From a virus, in the IMG/VR virus record IMGVR_UViG_3300007351_000031, positions 1 through 40,869 of that record: 40,869 nucleotides of DNA, one strand, 5' to 3'. Below the pieces are notes generated by a model, which did no database searches, had not been told where the DNA came from, and saw only the letters and a list, made by a program, of their open reading frames with translations. Position numbers and translations under genes: made by a program. Positions 1,936 through 7,490 of the stretch are shown piece after piece. Positions within the stretch are counted from its first letter, which is position 1. Each line of letters opens with the position of its first letter.

Positions 1936-3900
1936 TTAGGCGCGCTGGCCTAAATTGCGCTGCGCCATCTGCTGGCTCTTAAGCGCAAATTCTTGCTGTT
2001 GTCGCTGCGGCGCGAGTTGAATGTCTTGGTAGGTCTTCGCTGTCTGAGCTTCCTTGAGATAAGCTGTGGCGTGCAGATCATGCGTCCGCGCCGCAGTTTC
2101 CGACACCTGCGCGAACATTTCCATCTGCGACGGCCCGGCTTCGCCTTGCGGTTGACCCACCGCGCCCGCGTCGGCGAGCACCTTGACCGTCTGCGCCTTT
2201 TTAAGCTCTGCCGCCGCCTGCTTGTCGGCTACATCGGCTTGAGCGCCAGCAAATTGCAATTGCGCCGCCGCCTGCTGCATCTGCTGTTGCTCTGGAGCAG
2301 GCCGCATCATGTCGAGATATTTTTTCTTGATGCTCGACTGAATCGGGGCAAGCTCAATCAACAGTCCGGGGGGCATTCTCTCGCCAGCGCGGGCCAGCGC
2401 CGACAGCGCGTCGAATGCGTCGGCCTGCATGTTGATCGTGTCTGGCCCTTCGTCGAGAATAATATCAACATCAAGTGAGCCAAGAGCGTTGACCATCGCC
2501 GGGCGGCCGAATTCATCGACATCTATCCCATTGATCTGAATGAACTGCGCTACGCCATCGTCATCCGTGACACGAATCCAACGCTCCGCCGTCCAATAAT
2601 GTTGGATCGCATTCCAGACCGCCCGGTAAACCCGAAGTTTCCACGCCTTGTAGGAGATCATGAACGGCCCGATTTGAGCCATTCCCGCCTGTTGCAGCAG
2701 ATTGATCGCCCGACCAGAATCCGCTTTGGTATCCTCGCCGATCAATGCTGGATTCGGGCCGAATTTCTCAATATCCTGCTCCGCCTTAATCGAGAATTCC
2801 AGATGCGACCTCATGTCGCCTAGCGACTTGGCGTCCTCAAATTCAAGCTCAGCTCCCGGAGAATGGACAATCACGCCATCGTGTCGCGATGCTTCCCGGC
2901 GCAGTTTTTCAACATCATTGACCGCTCCCTCCGTCATGCGGATGCGGCGGCCGTTGAGCATCGCCAGTGACCGCGCCCGGCGCTGGTTTGTCTCATCCTG
3001 CAACGATTTGATGTTGCGGAAAAACCCGTAGCGGTCGCCGTCATGATCGACGTTCGCCGAGAACATGATGTATTTGCTCTGCGTCTTGCCTTTCTCGTCA
3101 ATCAGAAACGAGTCGCCCGACATCAGTTCCGTGTAGCCGGAATAGACGCACCATTTCCACTCGCCGCGCTCGATATACCAGTGATCGATCAATCGGATGC
3201 GCTTATTTGTCGTGTCCACCCATTTGCGCTCGCGGTCCTGATCATGCGCCGCCCCCGCGCCGGTAGAGCCATCGAAAACGCCGTCGAGATCGTCTGCCTT
3301 TTCCGGGAACATCTCCTTGGCGAGGTCCACACCGACCCATTTCGCCACACCCATGAAACGCGCGTCGGAAAAATCATCCCGGAATGAGCGCGGATCATAG
3401 AAAAACAGGTCGGAGTCCACAGGGTTTAATCCAACCTCGCTATCTCCCATGTCTCCCTGCGTAATCTCGATTTCCAGACCGCCGACGCCAGTCACGCCGC
3501 AATCGCGCGCGCTCGCTGGCGAGATCATCTCCCATTGCTCAGCGTCAAGCGCATAGCGCAGCGCCGCCGTCGCGATTTCAGATCCTTGCTCATGCTTTGG
3601 CGTGCGGGGATAGGCTTTCGGGTCTTGCTTAAGCCGTTCAAGAACGCCAACAATGCCATTGATCTTGAGCGAGAACAGGTTGTTGGTCACCGGGGCTTGC
3701 CGGCGATCTTTCAGAACCTTTAGTTCGGTTTCCGTCCATTGATCGCCGTGAAAATAATGCCGCGCCAGCCGCTGCTCTTTGATTTCCTCCGCCTTGGCGG
3801 TGAGATAGTCGTCATACTCGCGACGGCGCTTGGCGAGATCGACGCCGCCGTAAAACTGCGTGTCCCTTCCCTGCGTTTGCTGTTGCTGGACTGCGAGCAT
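1936..3900 (-). CDS. Portal protein (P22 gp1-like)
   Basis: 654 residues, a typical length for P22-type portal subunits. The dodecameric portal sits at one capsid vertex and is the DNA channel and docking site for terminase. The N-terminal part contains 'HYFHGDQWTETELKVLKDR' and 'PVTNNLFSLKINGIVG', recurrent in this family. The last ~130 residues are Gln/Ala/Lys-rich helix, matching the long C-terminal helical barrel of P22-like portals. The ATG at 3900 shares its A with the terL TGA stop (TGATG), so translation is coupled. The next gene (scaffold) starts 85 bp downstream; no clear hairpin lies in that gap. Confidence 0.92.
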   Translation of the reverse strand: MLAVQQQQTQGRDTQFYGGVDLAKRRREYDDYLTAKAEEIKEQRLARHYFHGDQWTETELKVLKDRRQAPVTNNLFSLKINGIVGVLERLKQDPKAYPRTPKHEQGSEIATAALRYALDAEQWEMISPASARDCGVTGVGGLEIEITQGDMGDSEVGLNPVDSDLFFYDPRSFRDDFSDARFMGVAKWVGVDLAKEMFPEKADDLDGVFDGSTGAGAAHDQDRERKWVDTTNKRIRLIDHWYIERGEWKWCVYSGYTELMSGDSFLIDEKGKTQSKYIMFSANVDHDGDRYGFFRNIKSLQDETNQRRARSLAMLNGRRIRMTEGAVNDVEKLRREASRHDGVIVHSPGAELEFEDAKSLGDMRSHLEFSIKAEQDIEKFGPNPALIGEDTKADSGRAINLLQQAGMAQIGPFMISYKAWKLRVYRAVWNAIQHYWTAERWIRVTDDDGVAQFIQINGIDVDEFGRPAMVNALGSLDVDIILDEGPDTINMQADAFDALSALARAGERMPPGLLIELAPIQSSIKKKYLDMMRPAPEQQQMQQAAAQLQFAGAQADVADKQAAAELKKAQTVKVLADAGAVGQPQGEAGPSQMEMFAQVSETAARTHDLHATAYLKEAQTAKTYQDIQLAPQRQQQEFALKSQQMAQRNLGQRA

Positions 3901-5384
3901 CAGATCGTCTTTATCGAGAGAGAGTCGAAGTCGTCATCGACCGAGCGATAGCCAGATGCGTCTTCCGGCTTCTTTGGCGGCTTCGCTCGATATCCCGCAG
4001 TCATCTTGTCCAAGAGCTGACCGACAAGGCCAAGCGCGTCAACTTGGTCATCGTGGACGCCAGCCGGAAACCGTAAAAGCTCGCTGATAAGATCATTCCG
4101 CCACGGCGCAGAGGATAACACTCGCAAACCTCGCATCGCCATACGGCCGCGGATCGACTGAGCCCGGACCGCCTTATCGCCGCGAGTAGGAAACTGTGTC
4201 CGTAGACAATAGGCGCGACGCTCGCGGGCTCGCTTATCGAGGAACGGCCCGACGCCGGAGCGGATTTGCCCAAGTTCTTCCGCCCATTCCATCGGCTTCC
4301 ACTTGAGAACAAGATCGCACCAGCTTTCTACCCATTCGTCAGACGCAACTTGCCGACGCCAGAGGTCTAGGAGATAGAGGTTTTCGTCAGAATCGAGCCC
4401 GATAACCGCGTGGACCGTGTAATCGCCGCCGTCGCTCGTCACCGCATAATCCGATCCGCCATAGACGCGCAGCGTGGCGAGCGGCGGCAGGGAGTCTACC
4501 GGGTGAATCCATTCCGCTTTGAAGTAATCGCCTTCCTCTGGAGTTGGCTCTTGCTGATATAGCGCGGACCAAAGGCGCGCATCGCGTTTCGCGTCGGCGC
4601 GCATCTCGTCGTTGAACCATTCGGGCCAAAGCGGCTCGCCAAGCGAGCGGCCCAGCGGATCGTCATTTGCCGTCGCCTCCATCGGCAATTTGATGATGCG
4701 CCAGCGGTCGGCTTCTTCGGCTAGAATGCGCCCCGCAAGATCGTCTTCATGCCAGCGGGTCTGGATCAATATCACGCCGGCGCCCGGCTTTAGCCGCGTT
4801 TGCAAATCGAACCGCCACCAATCCCATTGCTTGTCGCGGATCGTTTGGCTGTCCGCATCTTCGCGCGAGCGTATCGGATCATCGATGATCGCCAGATCGG
4901 CGCGCCGGCCAGTAACCGACCCGCCGACGCCCGCCGCAAAATACTCGCCGCCCGCGCTCGTTTCCCATCTGCCAGCGGCGCTACTATCGCCAGCGAGTCC
5001 GACGCCCAGCACCCCGGAATGTTGCCCGACATAGTTGCGGACGCGCCGCCCCCATTTTTCCGCCAATTCTTGGGTGTGCGACGCAGCAATAATCGAGGCC
5101 GAAGGCTTGTGCGCTAGGAACCAAGGCGGGAAAAGTATGCTCGCGTAGGTTGATTTTGCAGAACCAGGCGGCAGAAATAGCGCCAATCGTGCAACTTCCC
5201 CGCGAACTACCGCTTCAAGCTCATTAACGATCAACTTATGATGCGCTGCGGGCTCAAACCCGCAAAGCCGACACCAATTAGTGAGTGAGCGGGAAATCGC
5301 CCTCCTCGTCGCCTCCCTCCTCAGCGCCGCCCGCGAGTAGCGCGACAAGTTGGGCGTCGGAGAGACTGCGCAATTCGCCGTCAA
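3900..5384 (-). CDS. Terminase large subunit
   Basis: 494 residues. The N-terminal ATPase carries Walker A 'LPPGSAKST' (about 71-79) and Walker B 'DLAIIDDP' (about 163-170). The C-terminal RNase H-like nuclease has 'GGSDYAVTSDGGDYTV' and the late acidic motif 'HDDQVDALG'. It cuts concatemeric DNA and pumps it through the portal. The start is uncertain. The given start is TTG at 5384, overlapping terS by 107 bp, and no ATG or GTG occurs before conserved sequence begins. Strong purine runs (AGGAGG, GAGGAGG) inside the terS tail lie just before an ATT codon near 5298, so initiation may occur close to 'SRSLTNWCRLCGFEP'. Confidence 0.95.
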   Translation of the reverse strand: MTANCAVSPTPNLSRYSRAALRREATRRAISRSLTNWCRLCGFEPAAHHKLIVNELEAVVRGEVARLALFLPPGSAKSTYASILFPPWFLAHKPSASIIAASHTQELAEKWGRRVRNYVGQHSGVLGVGLAGDSSAAGRWETSAGGEYFAAGVGGSVTGRRADLAIIDDPIRSREDADSQTIRDKQWDWWRFDLQTRLKPGAGVILIQTRWHEDDLAGRILAEEADRWRIIKLPMEATANDDPLGRSLGEPLWPEWFNDEMRADAKRDARLWSALYQQEPTPEEGDYFKAEWIHPVDSLPPLATLRVYGGSDYAVTSDGGDYTVHAVIGLDSDENLYLLDLWRRQVASDEWVESWCDLVLKWKPMEWAEELGQIRSGVGPFLDKRARERRAYCLRTQFPTRGDKAVRAQSIRGRMAMRGLRVLSSAPWRNDLISELLRFPAGVHDDQVDALGLVGQLLDKMTAGYRAKPPKKPEDASGYRSVDDDFDSLSIKTI

Positions 5385-5748
5385 TGTCTATCTGCTTCCG
5401 ATCAATGAACATGCCCAGCTCCTTGCCGAGCAGTTCGAGTGCTTTATTCGATGGGCCATAATCTTCGGCAGCGGAGGCCGCCTGGGCGTTTTCGATTAAG
5501 CGGGACATTACCCATTGGCGGTCGATCGAAAGCGCCTCAGCAGCCTTCTCTGTGGCCTTACGGGCCATTTCATCGCGTTCGGCGAGAAGCTCGGCGACGC
5601 GGGTTCTGATGTGTTCTTCGCGGGCTAGACGAGCGGCGTTGTGGCGGTTTTTTTTGAACCCAACTTGCTCATATGCAGCGTCGGCTGTTTTCCCCTTCGC
5701 CAGTTCTTGGGCGAAACGCTCCCACCTGGGATTTTTGAGGACACCCAT
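5278..5748 (-). CDS. Terminase small subunit
   Basis: 156 residues beginning MGVLKNPRWERFAQELAKG, followed by 'TADAAYEQVGFKKNRHNAARL'. This is the N-terminal DNA-binding HTH typical of the Terminase_2 small-subunit family, which recognises the packaging site. A middle helical part (50-120) should drive oligomerisation, and an acidic Gly-Glu-Asp tail (about 140-150) ends the protein. The tail is encoded by AGGAGG-rich DNA that may double as a ribosome site for terL. GGGGAAG lies about 9 bases before the ATG at 5748. This is the first major gene of the late leftward operon. Confidence 0.9.
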   Translation of the reverse strand: MGVLKNPRWERFAQELAKGKTADAAYEQVGFKKNRHNAARLAREEHIRTRVAELLAERDEMARKATEKAAEALSIDRQWVMSRLIENAQAASAAEDYGPSNKALELLGKELGMFIDRKQIDIDGELRSLSDAQLVALLAGGAEEGGDEEGDFPLTH

Positions 5749-5754
5749 TAGGCA

Positions 5755-5808
5755 TTACTTCCCCGGCTTTGGTTTGGGGCGAGGTTTAGGTTTGCACGGC
5801 ATTTTCAT
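5755..5808 (-). CDS. Lys-Pro-rich micro-ORF upstream of terS
   Basis: A 17-codon frame from ATG 5808 (second ATG at 5802) reads MKMPCKPKPRPKPKPGK and stops at 5755, seven bases before terS. The repeated Lys-Pro pattern is unlikely to be chance at this position, but there is no clear Shine-Dalgarno. It could be a leader peptide or a small DNA-binding peptide. No function is assigned. Confidence 0.35.
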   Translation of the reverse strand: MKMPCKPKPRPKPKPGK

Positions 5809-5815
5809 TTTTCGC

Positions 5816-5844
5816 TTGACAGGATTACCCAGTTAGGGCATTAT
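5816..5844 (+). promoter_or_regulatory. Sigma70-like promoter with palindrome over the -10
   Basis: TTGACA (5816-5821), a 17-bp spacer and CATTAT (5839-5844) form a near-consensus promoter reading into the 5890 gene. GGCATTATGCC (5837-5847) is a perfect palindrome around the -10, and GGGC-GATAGC-GCCC (5857-5870) is a second inverted repeat just downstream. Both are plausible operators, for example for the HTH protein encoded at 6981. Confidence 0.75.
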
Positions 5845-5889
5845 GCCAGTGTCGTAGGGCGATAGCGCCCGCCAAGATGGAGAGAGACA

Positions 5890-6186
5890 ATGACCACAGC
5901 GGCAGAAATCAGAAAAATTGAGAATGACGCTATTCTTGCCGCCCAGCGCGCCACGGTGCTGGCCATGATTGGCGACAAGGAGGAGGCCGCAAAATTCAGG
6001 GCCGTAGCTGATGAGCTTTTCGAAAAAGCCAACGCCATGATGATCGAGCGCTATGGCCGCAAATTGTCCAGCAACGAGTTGATGCAGATCGAGCATGATG
6101 AAGAATGTGCCCGTCTCGGTCTACCTCTGGATACGAAGTATCTTGATTTATGGGCCGCCCAGGCCGCCGAGTCTACGGGAGCTTGA
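5890..6186 (+). CDS. Small hypothetical protein, first gene of a rightward operon
   Basis: 98 residues starting MTTAAEIRKIENDAILAAQ, with GGAGAG six bases before the ATG. The composition is helical and charged, with no signal peptide or membrane segment. I recognise no family. It is the first gene behind the promoter at 5816 and is divergent from the late head operon. The arrangement of small unknown genes ending in an HTH gene suggests an accessory or anti-defence role, which is inference only. Confidence 0.75.
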   Translation: MTTAAEIRKIENDAILAAQRATVLAMIGDKEEAAKFRAVADELFEKANAMMIERYGRKLSSNELMQIEHDEECARLGLPLDTKYLDLWAAQAAESTGA

Positions 6187-6245
6187 CACCCTGCCCCCAA
6201 GGCCAAACCACCGCCTGCTGGATATATTCGCGACACGAGGGCGAG

Positions 6246-6548
6246 ATGATCACCATCCTCCAACATGACGAGACTGAGTCAGGCCCCCGCCTGCGCGCGA
6301 CCCTCGTCGAAAAATACGGAATATGCTGCACAAAAATCCGAGAGATCGGCGGGCTGCTGACGCGCGATTACACGGAGGCGGCAGTCGCGCTGTGGTCCTA
6401 CGTCCGTCCGTCTACGGGCGCGACCGTATGGATTATCGAGGCAGAGCTGTTTTTCCCGCCCGACGCTTTGGTGTGGCGCTCCTATGTCCTCGACAATGAG
6501 CCGAGCGACGAGCAGATTCGCGAGATCATCGTGATGGATGCCGCTTAG
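6246..6548 (+). CDS. Small hypothetical protein
   Basis: 100 residues from ATG 6246 (MITILQHDETESGPRLRATL), preceded by GAGGGCGAG. The upstream in-frame Met is rejected because it lacks a ribosome site and runs back over the previous gene. The protein has mixed alpha/beta character and a hydrophobic middle with 'AALWSYVRP'-like aromatic content. It has no membrane segment and no known motif. Second gene of the operon from 5890. Confidence 0.7.
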   Translation: MITILQHDETESGPRLRATLVEKYGICCTKIREIGGLLTRDYTEAAVALWSYVRPSTGATVWIIEAELFFPPDALVWRSYVLDNEPSDEQIREIIVMDAA

Positions 6549-6578
6549 AATAGCACACCAAGTAGATGCCAACAAAAA

Positions 6579-6602
6579 CCGGCCCCTCATGGGGCCGGCC
6601 AC
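6579..6602 (+). terminator. GC-rich hairpin between operon genes
   Basis: GGCCCC-TCAT-GGGGCC with flanking CCGG pairs forms an 8- to 9-bp stem with a 4-base loop just after the 6246 gene. There is no U-tract, so it is an attenuator or mRNA-stability hairpin rather than a clear Rho-independent terminator. A TTGACA at 6614-6619 follows but lacks a good -10. Confidence 0.4.
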
Positions 6603-6693
6603 GACTGTCTATCTTGACACAACACCAGCAGTGTTTCGATCCACTCTCGCGCGATGCTCGCGAGAACCACACTCCAAGCCGATGGAGGCTGAC

Positions 6694-6978
6694 ATGTATT
6701 TTATAGGACGTCACGCCCGGAAAATCAACAGGGCAGCTAAAATCTCCATGATAGGTGAGTATCGAGAGAGTTTTTGCGCGATGCTAGACGCCATCCCTCA
6801 AGAAGTTTTATCGGCGCTACCCGCGCAGCAAATCGCCGCACTAATCGACGCAAATTATAAACTATCCAAAATCAGCAAGCGCATCGCTGAGGATGACGCC
6901 GTAGCAAACGGGTTTGTTTGGGATCATGCGCGCGGCTGCGCCCGCAATCTTGAGCCGATAGCCCTGACCAGTCATTAA
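6694..6978 (+). CDS. Small hypothetical protein
   Basis: 94 residues from ATG 6694 (MYFIGRHARKINRAAKISMI), chosen because GGAGG sits exactly five bases upstream. The earlier in-frame ATG at 6682 would place the ribosome site inside the gene. The sequence is basic at the N-terminus and helical in the middle ('IPQEVLSALPAQQIAALIDA'). No known domain is visible. Third gene of the 5890 operon, followed two bases later by the HTH gene. CTCGCG-N7-CGCGAG (6645-6663) upstream could be a hairpin or operator. Confidence 0.7.
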   Translation: MYFIGRHARKINRAAKISMIGEYRESFCAMLDAIPQEVLSALPAQQIAALIDANYKLSKISKRIAEDDAVANGFVWDHARGCARNLEPIALTSH

Positions 6979-6980
6979 CG

Positions 6981-7193
6981 ATGACCCCTGCCGATCTCAA
7001 AAAAGCCCGCAAATCTCTCGGCCTTAGCGCCGAGAGATTTGCCAAAGTTTTCGGCGTCGCTTCTGGCAGGACCGTCCGAGGATGGGAAGCTGGCGAACGC
7101 AATGGTGCGCCAGCTCCTATTCCCAGACCAATCGAGTTGCTGGTTACGATCGCCATGGAATTCGAGGGCGTGAGAAAGCGGCTGGGGATTTAG
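6981..7193 (+). CDS. HTH transcriptional regulator (Aca-like by context)
   Basis: 70 residues. 'MTPADLKKARKSLGLSAERFAKVFGVASGRTVRGWEAG' is an XRE/Cro-type helix-turn-helix of the 'RTVRGWE' kind, occupying almost the whole protein, so it is a stand-alone DNA-binding protein. It is the last gene of a short operon of unknown small genes, two bases after its neighbour. This is the position occupied by anti-CRISPR-associated (Aca) autorepressors. The palindrome over the operon's -10 (5837-5847) is a plausible target. An Aca role is inference; it could simply be a phage regulator. Confidence 0.8.
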   Translation: MTPADLKKARKSLGLSAERFAKVFGVASGRTVRGWEAGERNGAPAPIPRPIELLVTIAMEFEGVRKRLGI

Positions 7194-7208: not shown

Positions 7209-7285
7209 TGGAGCCGCCAGCATGGGATTTGAACCTGCGACCGGCGCGATACAAGCGCGCTGCTCTGCCACTGAGCTATGGCGGC
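7209..7285 (-). tRNA. tRNA-Thr(TGT) with bulged T-stem
   Basis: The minus strand folds as a tRNA. The acceptor GCCGCCA/TGGCGGC is perfect, with discriminator T and encoded CCA. The D-arm is GCTC-AGTGGCA-GAGC. The anticodon arm is GCGCG-CTTGTAT-CGCGC, giving anticodon TGT. The T-loop TTCAAAT is canonical, but the 3' side of the T-stem has two extra bases (CA), so GCAGG pairs with CC..TGC around a bulge. It may read the ACA codon, rare in a GC-rich phage, or it may be decaying. Confidence 0.8.
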
Positions 7286-7287
7286 GA

Positions 7288-7466
7288 TTTTGATTCGAGC
7301 GGCTGTCTGGGCACGGCTCGCGCCCGAATGCGCATTCCGATAACACAGGCACGGCCAACGCCACAGACGCCGTTTTGTGTTAGCGGTTCGCCATGCTGGC
7401 GGATGCGTCTGCCACCTCGATAGGCCGTTTGCGTGTCTGCTTTCCACGCCGCCGCTCGAATCAAAA
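7288..7466. repeat. 16-bp perfect inverted repeat enclosing ~147 bp
   Basis: TTTTGATTCGAGCGGC (7288-7303) has its exact reverse complement at 7451-7466. Four further pairs continue outward after one mismatch (GGCG 7283-7286 with CGCC 7468-7471). The outer arms touch the tRNA acceptor stem on one side and the terminator stem on the other. Confidence 0.85.
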
Positions 7467-7490
7467 GCGCCGGGAGCGATATCCCGGCGC
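7467..7490 (-). terminator. Rho-independent terminator of the leftward replication operon
   Basis: GCGCCGGGA-GCGATA-TCCCGGCGC forms a 9-bp perfect stem. On the minus strand it is followed by TTTTGATT. It lies about 60 bp after the last gene (7554) of the leftward operon. Confidence 0.8.

Follow-up and report, generated by a model that had tools for sequence, protein, structure and literature searches.

What is the role of an operon of small genes, closed by a lone HTH gene, that lies between the early genes and the terminase genes of a phage? We addressed this question in a 40,869-base IMG/VR virus record, analysed over its whole length and called here the window. It carries genes for terminase, RecT, PAPS reductase and a tyrosine integrase, and therefore probably represents a temperate tailed phage. 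A preliminary description had read the operon as a candidate acr-aca locus, in which the HTH protein represses its own promoter. Loci compared with it are designated below by L numbers.

The operon and its surroundings

The operon is flanked on one side by the leftward terminase genes, from which it diverges (large subunit, 3900-5384; small subunit, 5278-5748, phrog_11494, E 1.5e-16; both on the minus strand), and on the other by a leftward early block that includes a replication O-like gene and two DNA methyltransferases. On the plus strand, gene 1 (98 aa, 5890-6186), gene 2 (100 aa, 6246-6548) and gene 3 (94 aa, 6694-6978) are followed, after a gap of 2 nt, by the 70-aa HTH gene (6981-7193). 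The promoter, its palindrome and the ORFs were all recovered at the positions first given for them, and the divergence from late genes was confirmed. Genes 1 to 3, introduced as three small genes of unknown family, indeed yielded nothing above noise in Pfam, PHROGs, NCBIfam and PADLOC, so that the operon has the order of an acr-aca locus: small genes of no known family, then an HTH gene. Gene 1 has no relative in IMG/VR and no match in the PDB, and gene 3 has no relative in IMG/VR or in 385 alphaproteobacterial genomes. The structure model of gene 2 (pLDDT 84) bears a likeness to the DcrB/SciW/Mog1 folds that is too weak to assign a function (best Z 8.6, 6% identity).

Three kinds of element came in addition to those described before: leader hairpins, a solitary CRISPR repeat, and two terminator-like hairpins of the minus strand within the plus-strand operon. 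One of the latter is a 14-bp perfect inverted repeat within the HTH gene (7009-7042). We had considered it as a second operator and dropped the idea: a T-run follows it on the minus strand and, by eye, the palindrome is absent from the L004 HTH gene, so that a terminator of leftward transcription fits better. Together with the second hairpin (6577-6600), it would halt leftward early transcription ahead of the late genes.

Other features were recorded at the edges of the operon. A phage tRNA-Thr(TGT) gene (7213-7286, minus strand) adjoins it, and its end is overlapped by a 29-nt inverted repeat (7282-7310 and 7444-7472, 86% complementary, 133 nt apart). In L045, about ten phage tRNA genes (5431-6596, minus strand) lie downstream of the HTH operon. 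Directly upstream of the terminase small subunit gene, the window has a 15-codon ORF, MPCKPKPRPKPKPGK (5752-5801, minus strand), possibly a small late gene or a leader peptide; a 61-aa ORF of L011 starts similarly (MACKPKPRPKPKLGK).

A promoter palindrome shared with other HTH operons

The operon is preceded by a sigma-70-type promoter, TTGACA-17-CATTAT (5816-5844, plus strand), which agrees with the consensus at 10 of 12 positions. Between 5000 and 8500 no other match occurs; shuffled sequences yield 1.9, hence the match by itself is not significant. The palindrome reported over its -10 hexamer, GGCATTATGCC (5837-5847), proved exact. It occurs once in the whole window and, as in acr-aca loci, places an inverted repeat inside the core promoter. 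Taken alone it is weak, such palindromes overlapping 3.4% of random hexamers. It becomes significant because the same 11-mer heads two other operons that end in an HTH gene, those of L004 and L044; the chance expectation for an 11-mer within 100 bp upstream of operons, over 8 compared loci, is about 4e-4 by our own arithmetic. L004, whose HTH protein is 54% identical to that of the window, has the site on the other strand, as GGCATAATGCC, directly before the first gene of the operon. L044 shares 15 nt, TTAGGGCATTATGCC, exactly with the window, and a TTGACA promoter there is surrounded by TTAGGGCATTATG(C/T)CC in two or three copies. On the basis of this sharing, we define a putative DNA operator, TTAGGGCATTATGCCA (5833-5848), with GGCATTATGCC as its core.

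Related palindromes are present in most of the other HTH-homologue operons, and in more distant relatives they lie directly downstream of TTGAC (for example ATAGGGCCATTGGCCCTAT or ATAGGAAATAATTTCCTAT). Over 16 promoter regions, the inverted repeats stood out from randomly drawn stretches of these loci (combined p 1.4e-6). The exact operator is absent from L043, which has the closest HTH relative (67% identity) and keeps the CATAATG core alone. A different palindrome, GTAGTCCGATAGACTAC, is found in the operon leader of a Chelativorans prophage (L005, 4636-4652), where it can be folded as an RNA hairpin before the first gene.

By sequence, the HTH protein ranks closest to Aca3

The 70-aa protein has an HTH_3 domain match. 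Compared as a single sequence with the sequences of all solved structures, it found Aca3 first (9vt3, E 5e-6) and Aca10 next. Family profiles searched against the whole PDB gave Aca3 at 1e-8 and 7e-11; second came 7xi5 (E 1.7e-7), which Foldseek lists as Aca10, and in the largest profile the Aca2 entries (4e-5) ranked after HigA2. A profile search against Aca families had been advised in the preliminary description, and its outcome, with Aca3 (7e-11) and Aca10 (1.7e-7) in the lead, agrees with the Aca-like assignment made there. Aca3 belongs to Neisseria type II-C acr loci and has the same size of 70 aa and the same HTH_3 domain (PMC9410906), but its similarity to the window protein is modest and lies mainly over the HTH. 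The C-terminal dimerisation domain of the Aca2 family (about 115-125 aa in total) is absent from the 70-aa window protein, and the HTH proteins of L005 and L011 had no convincing Aca match. In Mannheimia, a phage relative of Aca3 follows a 131-aa gene, and its leader has, by eye, no comparable hairpin. This pair, a 131-aa orphan and an Aca3-like HTH (gp16-gp17 of the Mu-like Mannheimia phage 3927AP2; L094, 2006-2689), is a candidate acr-aca3 pair in its own right.

The AlphaFold model of the HTH protein (mean pLDDT 97) was as close to antitoxins as to Aca proteins in VIA-align (Z of 10.2 for HigA2, 10.1 for MqsA, 9.9 for Aca2, 8.7 for Aca10 and 7.7 for Aca1). The fold thus does not separate Aca from antitoxin, and it is the sequence ranking that favours Aca. 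A toxin-antitoxin module, with gene 3 as the toxin and the HTH protein as the antitoxin, would suit both this fold and the 2-nt spacing of genes 3 and 4. However, gene 3 has no match to a toxin family in Pfam, PHROGs, NCBIfam or PADLOC, and the gene that precedes the HTH gene differs in every relative; we regard such a module as very improbable.

A leader RNA element in front of the operon genes

Between the operator and the start codon of gene 1, the leader sequence GGGCGATAGCGCCCGCC forms a predicted RNA element (5852-5892, plus strand). It consists of a hairpin, GGGCG-AUAG-CGCCC (5857-5870), and a small stem, CCA-AGA-UGG (5872-5880), which lies over the Shine-Dalgarno sequence and is followed by the ATG. 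The consensus, a hairpin GGGC-RAYRRN-GCCC and then a stem covering the Shine-Dalgarno, was found before operon genes in 15 HTH-related loci; in L043 a closely similar hairpin stands ahead of all six small genes. Over 72 loci, exact matches to the pattern GGGCNAYAGNGCCCGCC were confined to the window, L004 and L043.

A covariance model was built on 13 copies. Applied to loci chosen solely for the similarity of their HTH, it revealed further copies in L013, L048, L052, L062, L064, L068, L070 and L071, each of which precedes the HTH gene and shares its strand. In phage Pan3 the model gave a weak match (E 0.028), with the same strand and placement. Over ten whole virus records, every hit with E below 1e-8 fell at HTH operons. 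Over the 385 genomes, the best hit of the model was the HTH operon L013/L096, the remainder looking like chance, and a strict pattern was found in background numbers. Since the strict pattern stays at background and the model singles out a known HTH operon, the element appears to belong to phage operons and not to be a general one. Rfam had no family for it at the thresholds used, nor for the leader of phage ZF40 considered below.

Stem 1 is nearly invariant and offers almost no covariation evidence, so covariation does not prove it. In stem 2, the partner of the Shine-Dalgarno region is CCA, CCU, CUA, CUC or CCG, and the two sides change together. Its covariation was found in 17 of 25 elements (p 0.00025), and in 11 of 15 when one copy was taken per locus (p 0.005), in a test that ignores relatedness.

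A close known parallel is acrIF8-aca2 of Pectobacterium phage ZF40 (NC_019522), where a small orphan gene is likewise followed by an HTH gene, and the promoter has an inverted repeat (GTTCGCGATTGCGAAC). Its leader is built alike, with a hairpin of loop AUGG ahead of a stem that covers the Shine-Dalgarno. It differs from the window in its stem and operator sequences, the leader model does not match it, and its Aca2 has a C-terminal half that the 70-aa window protein lacks. Aca2 is reported to bind both nucleic acids, DNA as well as RNA (Birkholz et al. 2024, as cited in PMC12017499). The likeness of the two leaders points to DNA plus RNA control in the window: the layout of such dual control, leader hairpins at the Shine-Dalgarno together with a DNA operator, is present, and by analogy with Aca2 the HTH protein may bind both.

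The genes of the operon are exchanged between relatives

At the same genomic position, L011 (terminase small subunit 60% identical to that of the window), the Chelativorans prophage and Pan3 have different small genes, with a small HTH gene last. In Pseudanabaena phage Pan3 (ON968454), again between the terminase small subunit and leftward early genes, Pan3_63 precedes the HTH gene Pan3_62; the small gene differs from those of the window, and the HTH protein is 28% identical. Such differences at one position are, to judge from the sequences, typical of an accessory site whose content is swapped. No divergent small-gene operon is present at this place in Microcystis phage Mwe-JY13 or phage CBW1004C-Prop1, the terminases of which are related. 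Among 41 cargo proteins of the relatives, we found no convincing homology between operons, and few matched any family.

The position at the early-late boundary, common to the window, L011, L005 and Pan3, would also fit an HTH protein that is a developmental switch (Cro-like, or a late-gene regulator) of the divergent terminase promoter, the small genes being incidental. We hold this to be improbable: the type of HTH is swapped among these same phages, the HTH proteins of L004 and L013 would regulate operons that lie elsewhere, and the leader element would address translation of the cargo genes.

The operon of L004 (2140-5222) has a different content, a DUF3440/PAPS-reductase gene and a ParB-like gene under the same operator, with the HTH homologue at the end. 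We take these two genes to be an IbrA/IbrB-like pair. Their presence means that the link of the HTH family to Acr genes is not exclusive. It also suits an Aca-like autoregulated accessory operon directed against defences other than CRISPR, or serving another host-takeover role, as does cargo that differs in every relative and is mostly of no known family. We consider this alternative unlikely, given that gene 2 has its relative in a CRISPR-targeted prophage and that both loci contain a solitary type I-C-like repeat.

Gene 2 has a relative in a prophage targeted by its host

The sole relative found for gene 2 is a 61% identical protein of a Chelativorans xinjiangense prophage (L005). It occupies the same operon position, in a small-gene operon that lies on the terminase side and ends in a 71-aa HTH gene. 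The same contig encodes a type I-C system, with cas3, cas5c, cas8c, cas7c, cas1c, cas2 and an array of 104 repeats. Over 80 kb around the prophage, nine of the spacers of this array had matches, with 0 to 5 mismatches, and all nine fell inside the 52-kb prophage. TTC, the PAM of type I-C systems, stood directly 5′ of the protospacer in six of them, the perfect match included, and was shifted by one base in two more. A guilt-by-association search of the small proteins, which the preliminary description had recommended, thus leads for gene 2 to a prophage targeted by a type I-C host.

Self-targeting is a classic sign of an encoded inhibitor and does not tell which gene is responsible. The inhibitor could be encoded elsewhere in the 52 kb of the prophage, or the CRISPR system could be silent. 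None of the Chelativorans spacers matches the window.

A solitary type I-C-like repeat follows gene 2

A type I-C-like repeat end, GTGGATCGAAAC, lies behind a stem in the gap that immediately follows gene 2, in the window and in the Chelativorans prophage alike. In the window this repeat, TCTCGCG-AGCATCG-CGCGAGA-GTGGATCGAAAC, lies on the minus strand (6633-6665) and has a 7-bp stem; it is a candidate Racr-like RNA. It retains only the 12-nt 3′ motif, its hairpin sequence being different. The repeat of the Chelativorans prophage, GTCGCCTCTCACGAGGGGCGTGGATCGAAAC, is close to the host repeat, GTCGCCCCTCTCGCAGGGGCGTGGATCGAAAC, the array repeat ending in GGGGCGTGGATCGAAAC, and agrees with the type I-C system of its host, as expected of a Racr. 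As also expected, the window repeat is solitary and intergenic: one copy, no array by motif search, and no cas genes in the window. We infer a minus-strand promoter, TTGATT-17-TATAAA (6700-6728; 9 of 12 consensus positions), upstream of the repeat by reading the sequence, since it was below the threshold of the scanner and was not reported by it. The terminator-like hairpin at 6577-6600 (minus strand), 32 nt beyond the repeat, would close the putative small RNA.

A Bifidobacterium prophage offers a known arrangement of this kind, in which RacrIC1, encoded as a solitary type I-C-like repeat, adjoins the small Acr-type gene of AcrIC5 (PMC10651486). The window differs in that its repeat is antisense to the operon, with promoter-like and terminator sequences of its own, and in the HTH gene that ends the operon.

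The repeat was first spotted by eye, late in the analysis, and GTGGATYGAAAC is also present in two unrelated loci (L102 and L127), as expected for the approximately 0.5 Mb searched. It is therefore the placement after gene 2 in both phages that carries weight, and not the motif alone; by our own arithmetic, the chance of such a placement is about 3.5e-5 each for the window and L005. If the repeat had arisen by chance and the leader hairpin served translation in general, only an ordinary HTH operon would remain. The motif in unrelated loci and the scant covariation of stem 1 would agree with this; yet in each phage the repeat, with a stem before it, occupies precisely the gap that follows gene 2, and it is at HTH operons that the leader hits with E below 1e-8 are concentrated, which leaves this explanation hardly any probability.

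A model for the locus

We consider it likely that the stretch between the leftward early genes and terminase is an acr-aca-racr locus, with which a temperate phage counters CRISPR. Sequence establishes how the locus is arranged, that its operator is shared, the leader element and the solitary repeats, and also the self-targeting in the host of the gene 2 relative. Early in infection, the strong promoter would drive genes 1 to 3, gene 2 being the best Acr candidate. As the HTH protein accumulates, it would shut the operon at the DNA level by binding TTAGGGCATTATGCC over the -10, and would also act on the mRNA by binding the hairpin beside the small stem that covers the gene 1 Shine-Dalgarno. 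A small antisense RNA, about 120 nt long and encoded in the gap that separates genes 2 and 3, would carry the solitary type I-C-like repeat and, as a Racr, serve as a decoy for Cas proteins. We infer from sequence that the operon is repressed, that RNA is bound, that the Racr is expressed and that CRISPR is inhibited, as well as the target subtype in the window's host.

The acr-aca reading first proposed is thus upheld in part. In its favour are the Aca-like HTH protein, a palindrome common to relatives, the swapped cargo and the links to CRISPR; its regulatory part is better supported than its inhibitory part. More tentatively, we propose as a distinct possibility that the locus represents a new family of Aca-like HTH proteins of about 70 aa, which would control anti-defence operons of phages by binding a promoter palindrome as well as a leader hairpin that may stand before every gene, as in L043 with its six copies; in the window, the operon would join a new type I-C inhibitor, gene 2, to an antisense RNA anti-CRISPR.

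Dual control through DNA and RNA, known from Aca2, would then extend to a smaller HTH family. The leader element would be a searchable marker of probable anti-defence genes, independent of the sequences of these genes. Candidates for type I-C inhibition are gene 2, its Chelativorans relative and the two solitary-repeat RNAs, and a native host is at hand, in which nine spacers target a prophage that carries such a locus.
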